Part shown: positions 53,222 to 64,000 of the stretch, piece after piece | Position numbering within the stretch: position 1 is the stretch's first letter | Layout: each line of letters begins with the position of its first letter | Assembly: GCA_013314775.1 (NCBI GenBank) | Contig: JABUFB010000008.1 | Location: 1 to 64,000 of the forward strand | Direction of reading: 5' to 3' | DNA from: Armatimonadota bacterium | GTDB taxonomy: Bacteria; Armatimonadota; Zipacnadia; Zipacnadales; JABUFB01 | DNA: 64,000 nt | The notes under the pieces: model-generated | Told to the model about the DNA's origin: nothing | What the model saw: only the letters and a program-made list of their open reading frames with translations | Database searches by the model: none | Position numbers and translations under genes: made by a program

Positions 53222-54403
53222 ATGACAGTGCGCATACTGATCGGGGTGCTCCTGACGCTGTTTGGCCTGGGGATTGCTTGCGGCCCACCTGTGGATTGTG
53301 ACGAGGACGCCGTGGTGGCCAGCGCCCCCGCCGTCAGCTATGGGCCGGCGACCCACGAGTGTACGGCCGGTCACAAGATCGAAAAACGCAGCGTCACTCT
53401 GGACTCGGGAGCGATCCGTTACGGACTGGGCTACTCGGGCTGCGTCGACCCATCCCACGGCATCCAGCGGCCCAGTTCCGAGGGGAACTTCGGCATGCCC
53501 CAGCCGATCTCAGGAAACTGGTACTGGGGCGGCTTCCTGAAGTTCATAATCAACGGGGTGGACGCCACGAACTGCCCTGTGGAGGACTGGCGGGTGCTGG
53601 AGAGCGGCAGCCGCGGCCTGTTCCAGGTGGTCTTCGCACATCCCGATGCAACCGTGATGCTCCGGTTCCTGCTCCTGCCGGGAGCGAATCACCTGCTGTG
53701 CGAAGTGGGCTGGACGCCCCTTGAGGGCAAGGAAGTGAAGACAGCTCAGGCGTCCTTGCGCTGCTACCCCAGCTTCTTCACATCGGCCCGTAAGCGCGTG
53801 GGTGACCGGCACTGCATGACACCGCGGACCGATGAGGGGCAGGGCAAGACGCTGGTGGTCGACCCCCAAGCAGACACGTGGCTCTACTACTACGACACCA
53901 TCTTTGACGTGGCCAAGGGCGAGGGCGATGGCCCATGCGCGGCACTGCTCAACCCCGATGGCCTCACCAGCGGCAGCGTCTCGATTGGCGGCTATGCGGT
54001 GTTGACCACTCTCAACTACGACCCCTCGAAGGGCCGCGCATTGATGGGCTTCTACGACTTCGCAGGGCACACCAACGCCGAAGCCGAAGAGTACCTGAAA
54101 ACACAGGGCGCCGCGGATGCAGCGCGCCTTGCCGAGGCCGACTTCCGGCCGCTGGGCGTACAGAAACTCGACGTGGATCAGCTCCGCGCGGAAGCGATGC
54201 AGTTGCTTGCCGATGCCGGCCCTGACGGCGTGGCTCCCACGAGGCAGGTGGAGGATCTGCTGGCTGGAGTGGACGGCTACCATGCCCGGGCGGCGGCCGG
54301 CGACTGGAAGGCGGAAGCGGAACTGGCTGCACTGGTGGCCAACTCTTCCGACCTCTTCTGGCGCCTGAGAGCCTTCGCAGTGCTCAACAACCCTGACCGG
54401 TAG
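53222..54403 (+). CDS. secreted protein of unknown function
   Basis: A 393-residue protein with a hydrophobic leader (ILIGVLLTLFGLGIAC); the last residues could be a weak lipobox. The central part is beta-rich with conserved-looking aromatics (SGNWYWGGFLKFIING, DTWLYYYDTIFDVAKG), and the C-terminus is a helical, Ala-rich segment. I do not recognise a family or catalytic motif. Its position as the last gene of the operon, 35 nt after the GH42-like gene, suggests an accessory envelope role in glycan processing. ATG 53222 has AAAGGGG about 10 nt upstream. Its 3' end overlaps the convergent gene at 54384 by 20 nt. Confidence 0.7.
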   Translation: MTVRILIGVLLTLFGLGIACGPPVDCDEDAVVASAPAVSYGPATHECTAGHKIEKRSVTLDSGAIRYGLGYSGCVDPSHGIQRPSSEGNFGMPQPISGNWYWGGFLKFIINGVDATNCPVEDWRVLESGSRGLFQVVFAHPDATVMLRFLLLPGANHLLCEVGWTPLEGKEVKTAQASLRCYPSFFTSARKRVGDRHCMTPRTDEGQGKTLVVDPQADTWLYYYDTIFDVAKGEGDGPCAALLNPDGLTSGSVSIGGYAVLTTLNYDPSKGRALMGFYDFAGHTNAEAEEYLKTQGAADAARLAEADFRPLGVQKLDVDQLRAEAMQLLADAGPDGVAPTRQVEDLLAGVDGYHARAAAGDWKAEAELAALVANSSDLFWRLRAFAVLNNPDR

Positions 54404-57050
54404 CGAAATCACCAGTCAGGTAGCAGACGGCCCGCTGGTCGGGGGTATTTGCAGTGAAGCGTACACGAGTGCCCGGCGGCAGGTCTGCGGCCTCCAGAAC
54501 GTGGATCACTTCGGCCCACCCGCTTGCATCTGGTAACACCCTTGCGAGGCGGTTTGGCAAGCTTTCGATGAGCCTTTCGTTGAGTACGTGCGAGGAGCGG
54601 CTTGGATAGACCGCAAGGTAAAGCATGTCCGCTTCGATCAGTTCGTTCAGGAAATGAGTGCCCAGGGATACGTCTGGCGGGGCGTGCTCGCCCATCGCTG
54701 CCACCTCACAGACAACGGTTGCGCCGCTGATGTCCGCGAAAGTGACTGGGACCCCGAGGGATGGCGTTGATGTCCCCCAGCGTCCCGGGCCCGCGAGGAG
54801 CACCCCTCGCCCTTCAGGATTCGTCCCTACTCCCGCCAACGAACCCACGAACCGGGCTACCTGATGCCGCTGATTGAGGGGCAGGCGCGCGTAAGCATCG
54901 GGCCGGATTAGGACGATGCGCTCCAGGTTGAGATCGGTGCTCTGGCCGATGATGGGGCCCGCAGATGCCAGCAAGAGACTGCCGGCCGGGATATCCGCGG
55001 GCATGCTGGTATCCGGCCCGGCTCCTCGCACCTGCAGCGGACGGCACTGTACAAGATTCACGCGGTAGCTGCCGTCCGGCTTCAGATTCGTGGTGAACTC
55101 CACGTCCACCGGGTACTGGTAGGCCTCCTGCAGTGCCCCCAGCATCCTGCGCATATCCTCCGCGAACTCCGTCCGTTCCAGGAGGCCCTCGAAAGTGAGC
55201 ACCCAGGGCGAGACTGGTGTGGAACGTCCCGCGCGTTCCTCGAGATCACGGTCGTATGAGGCGAGCATGGACATGGGCAGGTCCGGCGCGCGGCGGGCCA
55301 GCTCCCCGGGCGCGACGGAGATGAGCCGGTTGGCCTCCAGGTCCAGGCAGTCCACCCGACGCTGGGAGTAGCGGCGGATCTGGTCGAAAGTCGATTCCAG
55401 GCGCCTGCGCGGGGCATTGAGCGCCACCACCCGCGAATAATCATCATCGGTGCGATCTACCGCGCGGGTCCCGAGGCCCATGACGATCCGCAGCACACCC
55501 GCGGAAGGGTCGATGTCGCGGTGCCACACGTACGGGTTGAGGGACAGCCCAACCCCCGCCAAGTCCGGCAGGAACAGACCGTCGCGGAGCTTTCCCGATA
55601 CCCGCTGGATGAGCAGCGCCATCTGCTCGTCTCGCTGCAGAAGGCCGCGCTGGGCTCGGTAAACCAGGGCCTTCTCGCCCATTGCGCTGGCGTAGATCGC
55701 GCGCACGGCGGAGTGGAAATCGCCGATGCGTTGCTGCCCCGGGCCCTGGTTGACGCAGAACTCGCTCTCGTATTTCCCCGCGAAAGCATTTCCGAAATTG
55801 TCCTCAAGCAGGCTGCTGGAGCGCACGATGATGGGCCATTGGCCGAAGTAGTCCAGCATCTGGAGGAACTGCTTCTCGGCATAGTCGGGAAATGTGCCGG
55901 TGAGAAGGTGCTGGCGTGCAGTCTCTGAGCCTTCGAGGAACCCCTCCGGATTGCGCTGCTTTTCGCGCACCCACCAGACGCCGTTGTTCACAAGGTAAGT
56001 GTAGAAGACATCCGAGCCCACGTAGAAGGAGTCGTGGGGCTCGAGGATCGTCTCCCAACGCGGGTCGGAGGCCTTGAGGATTGCGCGTGCGAGCAGCATC
56101 CCCACAGCTTTGCCCCCGATGAGGCCCGTTCCGATCATGCGACGACGTATGGCGACGAGGTCCTCCAGTGTCAGGTACCGGTCGAGAAGGCCCAGCATTC
56201 GTTCGTCGCGAGACACCGCCATGCGTAAGAGGCGGTTCTTCAGGTCCCAGGAACGCGGCCTTGCAGGGGCCGCTTCTCCAGCGGGATCACGTCGAGTATC
56301 CAGTACTGCCTCACCGTACTCGAGGACTTCTTCAGCCTGTCGAAATCCCCGGTGCCACAAGCCGGGACCGCCCCCCATCGACCCGAGGTTCATCCACGGC
56401 GCCGCCTGCTGGATTCGGGCGATGATGTCGCTGTCCACCACGGGGGTACAACTGTCGCCGTGCAGCAGGTGCAGGTTGTGCATGGTGGGGGAGTAGCGCT
56501 GCTGCACCTTGATGGGGTAAAGGTATTCCTCGCCGTCGAATAGGATCACGTCCAACAGGATCTGGGTGGTCTGCCGGATGAGCGCCGTGGCTTCCGGGGA
56601 GTGGCGATTGCGCAGCAGGCCGAAATACGCCACAGTCTCCATGTCCAGCAGATATGGGCAGGTCAACAGGAAGAAGCTGCCCAGCATCTCGTCACTCAGC
56701 CAGACTTCGGCCAGTTCCGACAGGCAGTCGAAGATGTAGTATGCACCGGTGCCCATTCGCTGGATAGTCTCGCGCACCTGGCTAGCGAAACTCTCAAAGC
56801 CCGAACGCGGGTCTAGCTCCAGTACCTGCACGCCACCAGTGGCCTCCACCAACGGGTCGTGGGAAGCAAAGCGGAAATAGATGGTCTCGCGTCCCTGGGC
56901 CACCGCGGCTCTGCAAAAGGGGATCGCGAACTGTCGATAGTGGGCCGGGTCATCCACCTGCCAGACCACATTGTCGCCGGGCAGGAGGCCGCGGATCACG
57001 CGGTCCAGGTCAGGCAGCCCTGTACTCAACTCGCCTCGCGCTATGGGCAT
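54384..57050 (-). CDS. KaiC-like N-domain fused to PPDK/PEP-synthase-type ATP-grasp domain
   Basis: An 888-residue cytoplasmic protein. Residues about 5-190 resemble a KaiC/RadA-type domain (ELSTGLPDLDRVIRGLLPGD), but the P-loop GxxxxGKT is replaced (DNVVWQVDDP); YYIFDCLSELAE resembles a Walker B strand. The middle (about 300-640) is the ATP-binding domain of pyruvate phosphate dikinase/PEP synthase (IGGKAVGMLL, IVRSSSLLEDNFGNAFAGKY, MGLGTRAVDRTDDDY, NLVQCRPLQ). No phosphohistidine swivel motif (GGxxCH) is seen; instead the C-terminus carries GPGRWGTSTPSLGVPV and THFLNELIEADMLYLAV. It is thus not a normal PEP synthase. ATG 57050 has AGGAG 5 nt upstream; a GTG at 57089 is an alternative. It diverges from gdhA. 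Confidence 0.8.
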   Translation of the reverse strand: MPIARGELSTGLPDLDRVIRGLLPGDNVVWQVDDPAHYRQFAIPFCRAAVAQGRETIYFRFASHDPLVEATGGVQVLELDPRSGFESFASQVRETIQRMGTGAYYIFDCLSELAEVWLSDEMLGSFFLLTCPYLLDMETVAYFGLLRNRHSPEATALIRQTTQILLDVILFDGEEYLYPIKVQQRYSPTMHNLHLLHGDSCTPVVDSDIIARIQQAAPWMNLGSMGGGPGLWHRGFRQAEEVLEYGEAVLDTRRDPAGEAAPARPRSWDLKNRLLRMAVSRDERMLGLLDRYLTLEDLVAIRRRMIGTGLIGGKAVGMLLARAILKASDPRWETILEPHDSFYVGSDVFYTYLVNNGVWWVREKQRNPEGFLEGSETARQHLLTGTFPDYAEKQFLQMLDYFGQWPIIVRSSSLLEDNFGNAFAGKYESEFCVNQGPGQQRIGDFHSAVRAIYASAMGEKALVYRAQRGLLQRDEQMALLIQRVSGKLRDGLFLPDLAGVGLSLNPYVWHRDIDPSAGVLRIVMGLGTRAVDRTDDDYSRVVALNAPRRRLESTFDQIRRYSQRRVDCLDLEANRLISVAPGELARRAPDLPMSMLASYDRDLEERAGRSTPVSPWVLTFEGLLERTEFAEDMRRMLGALQEAYQYPVDVEFTTNLKPDGSYRVNLVQCRPLQVRGAGPDTSMPADIPAGSLLLASAGPIIGQSTDLNLERIVLIRPDAYARLPLNQRHQVARFVGSLAGVGTNPEGRGVLLAGPGRWGTSTPSLGVPVTFADISGATVVCEVAAMGEHAPPDVSLGTHFLNELIEADMLYLAVYPSRSSHVLNERLIESLPNRLARVLPDASGWAEVIHVLEAADLPPGTRVRFTANTPDQRAVCYLTGDFATGQGC

Positions 57051-57151
57051 CGGTTCTCCTATGGACTGCGGCAAGGGTGGTTCGTCCACACGTCACAGTC
57101 CTCAGCATCGGTTTCCGCGCACACGAACCCGTAACCTGCAGGAACAGACTA

Positions 57152-58727: not shown

Positions 58728-60731
58728 TCAGTCTTCGGGCTTCAGCAATGCTTCCGGCGACGTGGACATAACTGACGGAATGCCCAACAGGTCCACGTAG
58801 TGGTCTTCCATGTGAACTCCAGAAGGCTTCGCCATCGCAAGGCACCAGACTTCACCCTTGGAGACCGCCGGGAGGGTGACATCGAACTGGTGTGCACGGG
58901 TGATGTTGTCCTGCTCGCCCACCATTTCCCCCGACGGATTGTAAAGGGTCGCCTTCACGCCTTCCCCAGAGCCCTCGCCGAAGAGCTTCACGCCGAACTC
59001 GGTAACTCCCTCCGGCACATAGAAATACAGCTTCGTGACCGTGGACAGGAACCGGATGGGCGAACCCGCGCCGATGATGCACATCCGATTGGTCGAAGCG
59101 CCCATGGCCACGTAGTTCGCGCCTGCATCGAGCTTGACCGTGTACGCGCCGGTCTCGGGGGCGGCGAACTCAACCTTGCCCTCCCCCTGGAAGGGGATTT
59201 TCACGTCGGCGACAACTGCCCCGGAAGGGCTCGTCACTGTGACAGGCATTGTGGAGCCGCCGTATTTACCCACCTGCCCGTGCTTGACAGCGAAGCTGAC
59301 GTCGTCGCCCTCCTTCGCGAATAAGATGTAAGTGGCTGTGCCACGATTGCGTATCGGAGACAGGTCGCACGCCGCAGCGGCGTCGGGATAAACGGGTACC
59401 AGTGAGCGGTCGCCCATGTCAAACTTCGCATAGCGCTTGAGGAGGGTATACGGCATCCACTTCTTGACGGCGGCCTCGTCGATGAGCACATCTTCGCGTT
59501 GCCCGTCGCGCTCAATAATGAGATTGCCGGTGATGGCTTCCAGTCCCGCTTCGCCGGAGTTGTCGACGTAGGTCATCGGCGCGCGGTCCACTGCGTCGCG
59601 GATCAAGATGTTACGGAACTCGATCTCGCCCACAGGCCGATTTGATCCATCGCGCGCCGCCAGGATGATGGGGGCAGCCGTGACGGAATTGGGCGCCGGG
59701 TCGATGATGCTGCAGTCCACGTAGGACAGGCCCATGCCTCCCACCGGCTTGCCGCCCACATAGATCCCGCCGCCTCCACTGCGTTCAAAGATGCAGTTGG
59801 TGAAGACCACGTTCCCCAAGACCGCAGCCGCCTCCGTGTTTCCGGTGTACATTGCGCATCCCGGGCCTGCGTCATCCACAGAGCGGCAGTTCTCAAACCG
59901 CATGGTGACCGGCGCGGACTCTGCTGTCAGCGAGGGCAGGTAGGCGACGAACCCGCCGCCCTTGTTGCCCTGACTCAGGCAGTTACGCATGACAACGTTC
60001 GCAATCTTCTCGCTGGATTCGTTGGGCTCGAAGTCGATGCCCGCCTGGGGAGGCGTGCCGGCCGTGTCCCTGAGGGTGGTATTTTCGATGAGCAGGTTCT
60101 CGGCGCTGATAACGCTGATTCCCTGGCGGTAGTTTCGGTCGCAGAGGACATCCTTGATGACGATGTCTTGATTGGTGCGGCCGCGGGTGGCCACACCCAG
60201 GTAGATACCGTCGCCGCCACTTTCTGCCAGCGTCAGCCCGAGGACCTTCACATTGGTGCAACTGCGGATGCTCAGGCAATGCCGCCACTCGGCCTTCTCG
60301 TACTCGGGGCCGTCGTAGTCAGACCGATGCATGCGCAGAGTGGCTCCGTATCCGTTGAGGACGATGTTCTCCTTATTCGCCGCAGTCATGAGCGCGTCAT
60401 TGCGGCCCTTGTACTCGCCCTTCTTCGCCAGGATCTCCGCTCCCTTTTCGAAGAAGATCTCCTGGTTGGACGCAAGTTGAATCGGGGTCACGATCCACGG
60501 CTTGCCCATGTTCTCAATGATCAGCTTCTGTGCGCCGGAGTTGATCGCAGCCTGAAGAGCGGCGGTTGAGTCAACTTCGTCGAAGCCCCACCAGGAAGCC
60601 TTGGCGGTGGTCAATCTGCCGGACTTCACATCATCGATCGCCTGCTGGTTCACCGCGGGCTGACAAGCGGCGATGGCGCAGGTCAGAGCAGCTAACAGAA
60701 TTGCAGCAGGGGTCAGGGTGCATCTGCTCAT
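58728..60731 (-). CDS. parallel beta-helix (pectate-lyase-fold) lipoprotein
   Basis: A 667-residue protein with a lipoprotein signal ending IAAC (Cys23). Residues about 45-380 form a right-handed beta-helix (STAALQAAINSGAQKLIIEN, NVKVLGLTLAESGGDGIYLG, IANVVMRNCLSQGN, FTNCIFERSGGGGIYVGG), as in polysaccharide lyases and GH28-type enzymes. The C-terminal third is beta-sandwich-like (FAKEGDDVSFAVKHGQ, GEGKVEFAAPETGAYTVKL). It probably binds or cleaves an acidic polysaccharide at the cell surface; catalytic residues are not identifiable by eye. ATG 60731 starts the leader. It lies 41 nt downstream of the unknown gene at 60773. Confidence 0.78.
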   Translation of the reverse strand: MSRCTLTPAAILLAALTCAIAACQPAVNQQAIDDVKSGRLTTAKASWWGFDEVDSTAALQAAINSGAQKLIIENMGKPWIVTPIQLASNQEIFFEKGAEILAKKGEYKGRNDALMTAANKENIVLNGYGATLRMHRSDYDGPEYEKAEWRHCLSIRSCTNVKVLGLTLAESGGDGIYLGVATRGRTNQDIVIKDVLCDRNYRQGISVISAENLLIENTTLRDTAGTPPQAGIDFEPNESSEKIANVVMRNCLSQGNKGGGFVAYLPSLTAESAPVTMRFENCRSVDDAGPGCAMYTGNTEAAAVLGNVVFTNCIFERSGGGGIYVGGKPVGGMGLSYVDCSIIDPAPNSVTAAPIILAARDGSNRPVGEIEFRNILIRDAVDRAPMTYVDNSGEAGLEAITGNLIIERDGQREDVLIDEAAVKKWMPYTLLKRYAKFDMGDRSLVPVYPDAAAACDLSPIRNRGTATYILFAKEGDDVSFAVKHGQVGKYGGSTMPVTVTSPSGAVVADVKIPFQGEGKVEFAAPETGAYTVKLDAGANYVAMGASTNRMCIIGAGSPIRFLSTVTKLYFYVPEGVTEFGVKLFGEGSGEGVKATLYNPSGEMVGEQDNITRAHQFDVTLPAVSKGEVWCLAMAKPSGVHMEDHYVDLLGIPSVMSTSPEALLKPED

Positions 60732-60772: not shown

Positions 60773-61918
60773 TCACCACGGTTGCTTGTCACTGAGGGCG
60801 GTATCGATGTGCGCGACGGCCTTCGCGTCAAGTTCGGCGAGTTCATTGATGATCTCGATGGCATCTCTACGGACACCGGGCTCGGCGAGCAGTTCAGCTT
60901 TCTGGTCGGAGCGTCCGTTGCCACCGACCAGCCCCCACATCTGCCAAACCAGATCATGCTCCCGGTCGTAGCAGTTGGCCGCGGTGGAAAGCTCTTCCGC
61001 CGCCCAGGGCAGGAACTGGGCGGTCTGCTCCAGGTATCGCGCGGCGTACCAGCGCCCTTCAGCAACGGTGGTCGCCGCGTCATCATGGACATCGAACATC
61101 AGGCGCAGGCGGCTCAGATCATCGGTTGCGAACTCGTCGTCATGCCCGAGATGCTCCGCCCAGGCCGCATACGCCGCGAGACCATTGTGGCGGTCGGGGA
61201 ACACCGTGAGCGTGCGCGAGATGGTGAGTGCCCAGTAGAGACTTTGGCGGTGGACTTCGGCACGGTCCGGCGCAGGCAGCCTCTCCCCGATGAAAATCAG
61301 TCCCCTGGTGTCCCCGAGCCAGGCGGTCTTGCGGAACTGGCCGGACGGCAGGCGGCCCACTCCACGGCTGAACTCGTCGCAGTCCTGGAAGAAGCTCCAG
61401 CCGGTGAGGGCTGCTCCAGCCTCCTCGTACCCAGTGATGATACAGCACTCGGGCGGACCCACGACCCCAAACCCGAGCACCGGGACTTCTCTGGCGATGC
61501 TCTCCATGATGCGTTGGGTCAGTGGGGCGGGGTCAGCCTTTCGGTCGATCTCGCAGAGCATCTCGCAACCGTACCCTACCGCCTCGAAACCACGCTGGAA
61601 GGGGCCGGCGGGGTCATTGCAGGCGACGCCAAGGTCCACATTGTCCGGGCTCCATCCGGGTTTCCAGGACAGCCTGAAGGCCGCGCCGGTGGTGCCCATG
61701 AGATACACGTACAGCTCATCCAGTCGCCAGGAACGGCCGTGGGCCTGGATATTCCGAGCCCCATAGTCTTCGCCCAGGAACTCCAGACAAGCGCGCAAGC
61801 AAGACGGAAACGGTGTGAGTTCCGGGCAGCGTGGCAGTTCAGGTTCGAACCCGACCCTCGGGACACCTTCGAGTACAGCGCGGTCCGGCAGGTTGCGGCC
61901 GCAGCAGCTTGCAGTCAC
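60773..61918 (-). CDS. protein of unknown function, possible cysteine-peptidase-like fold
   Basis: A 381-residue soluble protein. The N-terminal half has TPFPSCLRACLEFLGEDYG (Cys40, Cys44) and later VLGFGVVGPPECCIITGYEE, a layout reminiscent of C39- or papain-like Cys proteins, where a Cys-helix and a strand with His or Glu form the site, but no catalytic His is certain. The C-terminal half is helical (LSRLRLMFDVHDDAATT, YLEQTAQFLPWAAEEL). I do not recognise a family. The start is GTG 61918, supported by GGGGAGG upstream. It diverges from the glycyl-radical enzyme gene and precedes the beta-helix lipoprotein gene on the same strand. Confidence 0.65.
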   Translation of the reverse strand: MTASCCGRNLPDRAVLEGVPRVGFEPELPRCPELTPFPSCLRACLEFLGEDYGARNIQAHGRSWRLDELYVYLMGTTGAAFRLSWKPGWSPDNVDLGVACNDPAGPFQRGFEAVGYGCEMLCEIDRKADPAPLTQRIMESIAREVPVLGFGVVGPPECCIITGYEEAGAALTGWSFFQDCDEFSRGVGRLPSGQFRKTAWLGDTRGLIFIGERLPAPDRAEVHRQSLYWALTISRTLTVFPDRHNGLAAYAAWAEHLGHDDEFATDDLSRLRLMFDVHDDAATTVAEGRWYAARYLEQTAQFLPWAAEELSTAANCYDREHDLVWQMWGLVGGNGRSDQKAELLAEPGVRRDAIEIINELAELDAKAVAHIDTALSDKQPW

Positions 61919-62040: not shown

Positions 62041-62074
62041 CCGGGTGCTGCACAGTACACGGAGGCACGAGAGC

Positions 62075-64000
62075 ATGTCAATGAGCGAGACCCCAACCAC
62101 CACCTCGGCGGGCTGGTCCGGAATTTGGCGTCCCGCAGAGCCGCATCGCCTGCGTGATACGACCCGGGAACTTGCTCGGCGAGCGCAGTCCGGCGAGCAC
62201 GGGCGTACCATGCGCAACGCAGACTTCGCTCTTGATGAAGCGTTAGTCGCGGGGATGTCCCCCGACCTGCGCTATGCTCACGCGGCGATGCTGGTGGCGC
62301 GCGAGGCGCCGCTTCGCATTCTCCCGGGCGAGAAGATCGTGGGGGCGGCGACGCTGCTCGAAGCCGCCGCGCATATGACGCCGGTGGCGGGAGTTCACAG
62401 CACCAGCCACACCACTCTCGGCTTCCATCGGGTGCTGGAGACGGGATACCGTGGCTTGAGGCAGCAGATCGAGGACCGACTGGCGCGAGGCGACTTCGAG
62501 CCGTACTCCCCTGATAATCCTGAAGCGAGCCCAGCGCGTGGCGAGGAGTTCCTGCAGTCGCTTCTGCTGTGCTTGGATGCCGCACACGTCTGGCACCGAC
62601 GGCACATAGCGCTGCTGGATGACCTTGCGGCAAATGCAGAAGGCAATGAGCGCAACGAATACCTGGAGGTCAGGCGCAGCCTGGAGCGGGTGCCTGAGAA
62701 TCCACCAGAGACTTTCCGCGAAGCTGTCCAGTCTCTCTGGTTCATGTACGCCTTCCAGCGGCTCATGGGCAACTGGTCGGGCTTGGGCCGCGTGGATGCC
62801 ATGCTAGGACCGTACCTGCGGCGCGACCTCGAGGCCGGGTTGATCGACCTGGACGAGGCCCGAGAACTGATCGCGCATTTCTGGATCAAGGGCTGCGAGT
62901 GGATCGGCGCCTTCGACAAGCCCGGTTCAGGCGACGCCCAACATTACCAGAATGTGATCCTCGGCGGAGTGGACGAATCCGGCAATGAGGTCACCAACGA
63001 GGTCACTTATCTTGTGCTGGATGTAGTCGAGGAACTGCATATCAGCGACTTTCCCATTGCGGTGCGCGTGAACTCTCGCACCCCGGACCGGCTCCTGCGG
63101 CGCATCGCCGAGGTCCAGCGTCACGGTGGCGGGATCGTGGCAATCTACAATGAGGACAAAGTCCTCGAAGGGCTGGTGAAGTTCGGATATTCCCTCGAGG
63201 AGGCCCGCGGTTACACCAATGATGGCTGCTGGGAAGTCATCATGCCCGGCCGCACCTGCTTCGGCTACGCGCCCTTCGACATGCTGGGAATTCTGCAGGA
63301 CGTGCTGGGCCTGCGAGCTGAGGACGCGCAGACGCCCGAGTTCGAGGATTTCGAGGCCCTCTATGCCGCTTTCCTGGACGCTCTGCGCGCGCATCTCGAT
63401 GCCTTCAATGCGGGTGCGGATCATTGGGGTGCCCACGGTCATCCGGCGCCGCTGGTCTCGCTCATGGTGGAAGACTGCATCGAACGCGCCCGCGGATACT
63501 TCGACCGCGGAGCTCGTTACACTGTTCTCTCGCCACACGCGGGCGGCATGCCTGACACTGCCAACAGTCTCCTGGCGATCCGACGGATTGTGTTCGAGGA
63601 CAAAACGCTGAGCCTGCCCGAACTCGTGGGGATTCTGCGCACCGACTGGGCAGGGCAGGATCATCTCCGGCGGATGGTCACCACTCGCCTGGCATACTAC
63701 GGCAATGATGACCCCGAAGCAGATGCCATGATGCGCCGGGTGTTCGAAGACTACACGGCGCTGGTGTGGGAGGTTCCTGAGCGCAATGGGGTCAAGCGTC
63801 CGGCAGGGATCAGCACCTTCGGGCGGGAGATCGACTGGGCGCCAAGCCGCTCCGCATGCCCCGACGGGCACCGGGCAGGGGCGATACTCGCGACCAACTG
63901 CTCCCCGAGCCCCGGCACTGATCGCGAGGGCCCGACATGTGTGGTCAAGTCCTTCTGCAAGCTGGACTTCACCCGCACCCCAAACGGCGCGACGCTGGAA
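62075..64000 (+). CDS. glycyl-radical enzyme (pyruvate formate-lyase family), 3' end outside window
   Basis: 642 codons are open from ATG 62075 to the last base without a stop. The start has GGAGG at 62061-62065. The sequence matches the pyruvate formate-lyase/diol-dehydratase superfamily: SLWFMYAFQRLMGNWSGLGR, DDFPIAVRVN-type text (SDFPIAVRVNSRTPDRLLRR) and the active-site segment TNDGCWEVIMPGR with Cys385 and Glu387. A single Cys followed by x-Glu is the dehydratase/C-X-lyase pattern rather than the Cys-Cys pair of true pyruvate formate-lyase. The glycyl-radical loop near the C-terminus and the SAM activase gene are expected beyond the edge. The enzyme is cytoplasmic and oxygen-sensitive; its substrate is unknown. 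Confidence 0.88.
   Translation, partial: MSMSETPTTTSAGWSGIWRPAEPHRLRDTTRELARRAQSGEHGRTMRNADFALDEALVAGMSPDLRYAHAAMLVAREAPLRILPGEKIVGAATLLEAAAHMTPVAGVHSTSHTTLGFHRVLETGYRGLRQQIEDRLARGDFEPYSPDNPEASPARGEEFLQSLLLCLDAAHVWHRRHIALLDDLAANAEGNERNEYLEVRRSLERVPENPPETFREAVQSLWFMYAFQRLMGNWSGLGRVDAMLGPYLRRDLEAGLIDLDEARELIAHFWIKGCEWIGAFDKPGSGDAQHYQNVILGGVDESGNEVTNEVTYLVLDVVEELHISDFPIAVRVNSRTPDRLLRRIAEVQRHGGGIVAIYNEDKVLEGLVKFGYSLEEARGYTNDGCWEVIMPGRTCFGYAPFDMLGILQDVLGLRAEDAQTPEFEDFEALYAAFLDALRAHLDAFNAGADHWGAHGHPAPLVSLMVEDCIERARGYFDRGARYTVLSPHAGGMPDTANSLLAIRRIVFEDKTLSLPELVGILRTDWAGQDHLRRMVTTRLAYYGNDDPEADAMMRRVFEDYTALVWEVPERNGVKRPAGISTFGREIDWAPSRSACPDGHRAGAILATNCSPSPGTDREGPTCVVKSFCKLDFTRTPNGATLE

Follow-up and report, generated by a model that had tools for sequence, protein, structure and literature searches.

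Glycyl radical enzymes (GREs) described in the literature surveyed act within cells or within microcompartments. The same literature presents each GRE with a dedicated activase of its own, and two GREs per activase have been called atypical (PMC11528403). The roles of GRE active-site positions, including the site equivalent to His112 of the enzyme presented here, are described in PMC8473560. Sequence and profile searches place diol dehydratase, HypD and glycerol dehydratase (GDH) at the top among solved relatives of this enzyme.

The gene lies at the end of a 64,000-nucleotide stretch of DNA (the window; contig C8:1-64000) from an Armatimonadota genome of 6.12 Mb that is 98.5% complete. The frame opens with an ATG and runs for 642 codons without a stop up to the last base of the window, with Cys385 and Glu387 confirmed by translation and alignment. 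The original prediction, made from the window alone, looked for a glycyl loop past 64000; the extended contig carries it intact (LSVRISGWSARF, containing VRISGW), and the stop comes only at 64264. The protein matches PF02901 with 329.8 bits and PF01228 with 95.1 bits, both above cut-off, the latter match straddling the window end (contig 63890-64198). Its AF2 model (pLDDT 91.1, pTM 0.91) aligns to GRE structures with TM values of 0.77-0.86, and to diol dehydratase, HypD and glycerol dehydratase with 0.82-0.86, identity being 22-26% among the top matches. The PFL-like barrel, the Gly radical domain and the catalytic Cys of the superfamily are all present, and the gene is a complete, genuine GRE with Cys385-Trp386-Glu387 (Table 1). 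Since NDGCWE and VRxxGWxARF are conserved among 77 homologues, this assignment is not a matter of chance.

Table 1 Features of the window and of related loci
Feature	Position	Strand	Basis and remarks
GRE gene, 729 aa	62075..64000	+	Open frame, PF02901, PF01228; continues to contig base 64264, beyond the window
GGAGG, ribosome-binding-like site	62061..62065	+	Sequence reading; 9 bases 5' of the ATG
Glycyl radical domain, first part	63890..64000	+	PF01228 and translation; radical Gly703 at contig 64181-64183, beyond the window
NDGCWE, Asn382-Glu387	63218..63235	+	Family alignment; catalytic Cys385, Trp386, Glu387
His112 codon	62408..62410	+	Invariant in family; aligns with GDH His164, HypD His160, CutC Asp216
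Trp234 codon	62774..62776	+	Family-specific, 27/28
His488 codon	63536..63538	+	Family-specific, invariant
Arg584 codon	63824..63826	+	Family-specific; its strand corresponds to beta-8 (HypD 647)
381-aa ORF, divergent from GRE	60773..61918	-	No Pfam match; L045 alone has a counterpart, 86% identical and equally placed (tblastn, all loci)
Right-handed beta-helix protein, glycan-type context	58728..60731	-	PF13229, 45.6 bits; probably functionally unrelated to GRE
LamG-like insert within GRE	L063:10324-10935; also L062, L072, L074, L076, L077, L083, L086, L095		Hydrogenedentota

A genome-wide scan recovered 80 relatives of the window GRE (42-89% identity) from Armatimonadota, Planctomycetota, Hydrogenedentota, Bacteroidota, Lentisphaerota, Kiritimatiellota, Poribacteria, Chloroflexota and Clostridia. 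One of the six search seeds held DGCWEVIM; among the members listed, this exact string occurs only in the window protein and L045, so the other members were recovered through other seeds. NDGCWE is invariant in the 77 aligned members, as are the Trp after the radical Gly and VRxxGWxARF wherever the region is present, with one stop-codon exception. This is an Oscillospiraceae member in which TGA replaces the Trp codon after the radical Gly (L098:7884-7886), by sequencing error, gene death or recoding.

No NCBIfam family cut-off is reached by the window GRE, whose scores are 391 bits against 678 for TIGR01774, 358 against 1100 for HypD (NF043068), 316 against 1000 for sulfopropanediol dehydratase, 249 against 1050 for choline lyase (TIGR04394) and 101 against 994 for pyruvate formate-lyase. 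In a tree of the relatives with nine reference GREs and the eight other GREs of the window genome, the family forms a single clade (100/100) on a long stem, outside all references. A second NDGCWE subfamily from the same order, also with Trp after the radical Gly and 31-32% identical to the window family, joins it at 100/98, so that NDGCWE marks a deep, uncharacterised GRE lineage. Two members of this second subfamily (L156:1135-3573 and L159:5642-7930) each have their own adjoining activase. By sequence, then, the window family stands outside every characterised family, as had been anticipated, and its lineage is new to the libraries searched; the enzyme class itself, that of the GRE eliminases, is already known.

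The catalytic core is kept in full: His112, Tyr291 (equivalent to GDH Tyr339), Cys385 and Glu387 are invariant in the family. The Cys-x-Glu loop together with the beta-1 substrate-side residue (Cys385, Glu387, His112) bears out the eliminase type assigned in the original prediction, which had also singled out the Trp between Cys and Glu as uncommon; each of the nine references has Val or Ile there. Further family-specific invariants, most of them without exception, are Trp234, Trp276, Asp287, Tyr398, Asp402, His488, Arg584 and Arg592 beside Trp386, and the substrate-side residues are unlike those of every reference. Pocket positions were assigned by alignment to residues of solved enzymes rather than by geometry, and several of these invariants may line the pocket. 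For the other reference residues, number and letter agreed with the sequences, with HypD Tyr450 outside the alignment map.

The comparison with known enzymes shows the same mixture of a shared core and a distinct pocket. The B12-independent glycerol/1,2-propanediol dehydratases (1r8w, 5i2g, 9rco) are alike in fold (TM 0.83-0.85), in Cys-x-Glu and in the equivalents of His164 and Tyr339, but they are only about 30% identical, carry Val in place of the Trp and form a clade that excludes the window enzyme. Because GDH His281, Ser282 and Asp447 are not kept, the window GRE is not a simple glycerol or propanediol dehydratase. HypD likewise agrees in fold and in the equivalents of His160 and Ser334, whereas its Thr645, Asp278 and Arg156 correspond to Phe582, Ser235 and His108. 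The isethionate sulfite-lyases IslA/IseG have the GRE eliminase fold in common, but their sulfonate set Arg189-Gln193-Arg678, mapped through HypD, becomes His108-His112-Gly578. PflD and YbiW, whose crystals hold sugar-type ligands (anhydro-sugar phosphates), share the GRE fold at 27-29% identity and differ in clade and pocket. Archaeoglobus fulgidus PFL2 (2f3o, 30.5% identity) resembles the window enzyme in the DGC that precedes the catalytic site and in the Trp that follows the radical Gly; however, it has Val at position 386 and groups with choline TMA-lyase CutC, which in turn has Asp216 where the window GRE has His. Pyruvate formate-lyase carries Cys-Cys instead of Cys-Trp-Glu.

Gene neighbourhoods vary between relatives, whose genomes are rich in glycan genes, and nothing recurs widely around the 80 related genes beyond an activase (40 of 81 family loci) and an AraC-type regulator (17 loci). 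Individual loci are more suggestive. At L111, a rhamnosidase-type gene, the GRE and an Fe-ADH stand in a row, the Fe-ADH scoring 150 against a cut-off of 523 with the lactaldehyde reductase model. At L080, a class II aldolase, a fucose-isomerase-like protein and an FGGY kinase lie beside the GRE; the isomerase matches the sulfoquinovose isomerase model weakly (76.8 against 700). A single open frame directly after the GRE at L067:12161-15037 fuses a GRE activase to a DUF2961 domain, which we take to be GH172, and GH116 and GH127 genes are found among the neighbours of relatives. Elsewhere in the window, a 901-aa ORF (54384-57089, minus strand) appears by eye to join a KaiC-like start to a PEP-synthase-like part.

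Part of the family carries putative export signals. A rule of our own, which accepts RK as well (three of the Bacteroidota), detected a twin-arginine-type motif ahead of a hydrophobic stretch in 22 of the 68 members with a readable N-terminus, and other Bacteroidales have RA variants. The signal is present in 10/10 Hydrogenedentota, 3/3 Planctomycetota, 4/8 Armatimonadota and 5/10 Bacteroidota, in none of 22 Bacillota or eight Lentisphaerota, and in none of 15 control GREs judged by the same rule. The TIGR01409 cut-off was reached by eight of ten N-termini tested, one exactly at the cut-off, and TatC occurs in all examined genomes of signal bearers and is absent from two Clostridia. The N-termini of the window protein and L045 lack the RRxF motif and hydrophobic stretch. 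In a tree blind to the signal and cleared of insert columns, the members that carry a signal come out as one clade (SH-aLRT 96), with L054 apart, and the signal-less window lineage (L035, L045, L058) is nested within it, giving three changes in total. This nesting suggests that the window GRE descends from GREs with a Tat signal and has probably since lost it.

In addition, nine Hydrogenedentota members contain an extra domain of roughly 200 aa, inserted between the helices near residues 138 and 149 of the window GRE. Laminin_G_3 matches it in all three members tested (44-77 bits), and its model (pLDDT 81) resembles laminin-G and pentraxin folds as well as a putative carbohydrate-binding protein of Bacteroides. 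These relatives are probably exported and targeted to glycans. The Tat system carries folded proteins, so that installation of the radical in the cytoplasm before export is mechanistically possible. If a GRE bears both a Tat signal and a lectin-type domain, its oxygen-sensitive radical chemistry would take place beyond the cytoplasm, which would suggest radical attack on glycans. A literature search covering few subscription journals found no report of exported GREs, of such signals or of a lectin-fold insert, and the predicted signals and insert set the window family apart as a new form of GRE eliminase. Catalytic and pocket residues are essentially equal in signal-bearing, insert-bearing and window members, for which one reaction is therefore expected.

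We propose, with about even confidence, that the window GRE is a cytoplasmic C-O eliminase (dehydratase) of the NDGCWE lineage acting on a carbohydrate-derived polyol. A radical SAM activase, most likely the lone stand-alone one of this genome (contig 869461-870426), would install the radical on Gly703, and its transfer would create a thiyl radical on Cys385. This residue would then abstract hydrogen from an OH-bearing carbon, Glu387 would deprotonate the OH on the radical carbon, and His112 and its neighbours would assist departure of the vicinal OH, yielding an aldehyde or ketone and water. The substrate would most likely be a polyol or sugar from glycan breakdown. The eliminase reading draws on profiles and folds nearest the diol dehydratases and on the invariance of the catalytic Cys, the Glu and the GDH His164 and Tyr339 equivalents; the suggestive neighbours at L111, L080 and L067, the GH116/GH127 genes and the LamG insert favour a carbohydrate-derived substrate. 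Set against this, the window locus itself offers no operon evidence, the neighbours vary among relatives whose genomes abound in glycan genes, and the bulky Trp residues and Arg584 could fit an acidic or aromatic substrate. The original prediction had seen here the strongest candidate for new chemistry in the window; both the fold and the retained catalytic residues instead indicate ordinary GRE elimination, in a pocket unlike every reference.

Another substrate is conceivable, although we regard it as unlikely: a small diol, either 1,2-propanediol or ethylene glycol, with lactaldehyde or glycolaldehyde as its precursor when deoxysugars or pentoses are degraded. The nearest folds and profiles are indeed those of 1,2-propanediol and glycerol dehydratases, and an Fe-ADH (L111) or isomerase, kinase and aldolase genes (L080) adjoin the GRE. 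Yet the GDH pocket residues are missing, the aldolase pathway occurs in one locus only, the L111 Fe-ADH falls far under the lactaldehyde reductase cut-off, and Tat signals and a lectin-like domain in relatives would ill suit a cytoplasmic fermentation intermediate. The deoxysugar-derived diol first suggested for this enzyme is weakly supported by the neighbours at L111 and L080; pathway genes do not recur.

There is a similarly small chance that the enzyme acts on an anionic sugar derivative (a sugar acid, sugar phosphate or sulfosugar) bound by Arg584, Arg592 and His488, with C-O cleavage, or C-S cleavage if it were a sulfonate. Arg584 is invariant, family-specific and on the barrel strand that bears IslA Arg678, anhydro-sugar phosphates are present in the crystal structures of PflD and YbiW, and the L080 isomerase gives its weak sulfoquinovose isomerase match. 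Arg584 is not at the position of Arg678, however, recurring sulfite or phosphosugar genes are lacking, and the absence of the isethionate lyase clamp weakens the sulfonate substrate also put forward in the original prediction. It is improbable that the enzyme is a decarboxylase or that it cleaves a C-C or C-N bond of some unrelated substrate. Sequence by itself does not fix the substrate, and the Trp residues could bind an aromatic ring, but choline lyase Asp216 is His112 here, and with the models for arylacetate decarboxylase and choline lyase the protein falls far short of the cut-offs.

The gene for a GRE activase typically, but not universally, adjoins that of its enzyme. The adjacent SAM activase expected in the original prediction did not materialise in the flanks read; the single GRE activase of the genome (TIGR02494, 346.6 bits) lies about 0.8 Mb from the window GRE, and the PflA model found no match above cut-off over the genome. 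The other radical SAM matches were rejected as GRE activases: two AmmeMemoRadiSam proteins, one NrdG2, which has a partner in the genome's class III ribonucleotide reductase (NrdD), and one short protein that looks like QueE and has no NCBIfam match. The same genome encodes nine PFL-like GREs (pairwise 25-34% identity) with the active sites GCWE, CCYE, TCVE, GCHE, GCVE, GCYE, SCMG, GCNE and GCTE, none of which reaches a cut-off of assigned function.

Across 41 genomes (the window genome and 40 relatives), match rows for GREs and activases co-vary (Spearman 0.83): 29 genomes have both, nine have neither and three are discordant. The totals are 142 GRE rows, an upper count because of split genes, against 47 activase rows. 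In a tree of 73 activases, 18 stand-alone ones form one clade (95/96), and activases adjoining GCWE enzymes elsewhere mostly belong to a different clade. L155, considered as a nineteenth orphan, falls outside the orphan clade and adjoins a GRE that is truncated where its contig stops. In the loci whose genes could be resolved, carB (carbamoyl-phosphate synthase large subunit) is usually the neighbour of the stand-alone activase, an arrangement seen across the order; L036:9461-14419 displays this linkage.

The simplest reading of these trees and gene orders is that the window lineage lost a paired activase and relies on the stand-alone one, which would most likely be shared by the window GRE and the eight others. 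Activase sharing is absent from the reports found in a literature search that took in a minority of subscription journals. With up to nine GREs per genome and a single stand-alone activase that is inherited vertically, activase specificity can be tested directly. Taken together, it is a tentative proposal, which we rate slightly below an even chance, that the family holds the first exported GREs, folded and radicalised in the cytoplasm and carried by Tat, with the Hydrogenedentota insert aiming at extracellular glycans, that the window member has been re-internalised, and that one activase serves nine GREs.

Two further loci of the window genome deserve mention. The SCMG enzyme (L042:9171-11318, contig C24) is a GRE without the catalytic Glu, with its Gly loop intact. 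The NrdD match (G000:C22:14964-16801) is split between two different open frames, perhaps through a frameshift near the C-terminus.
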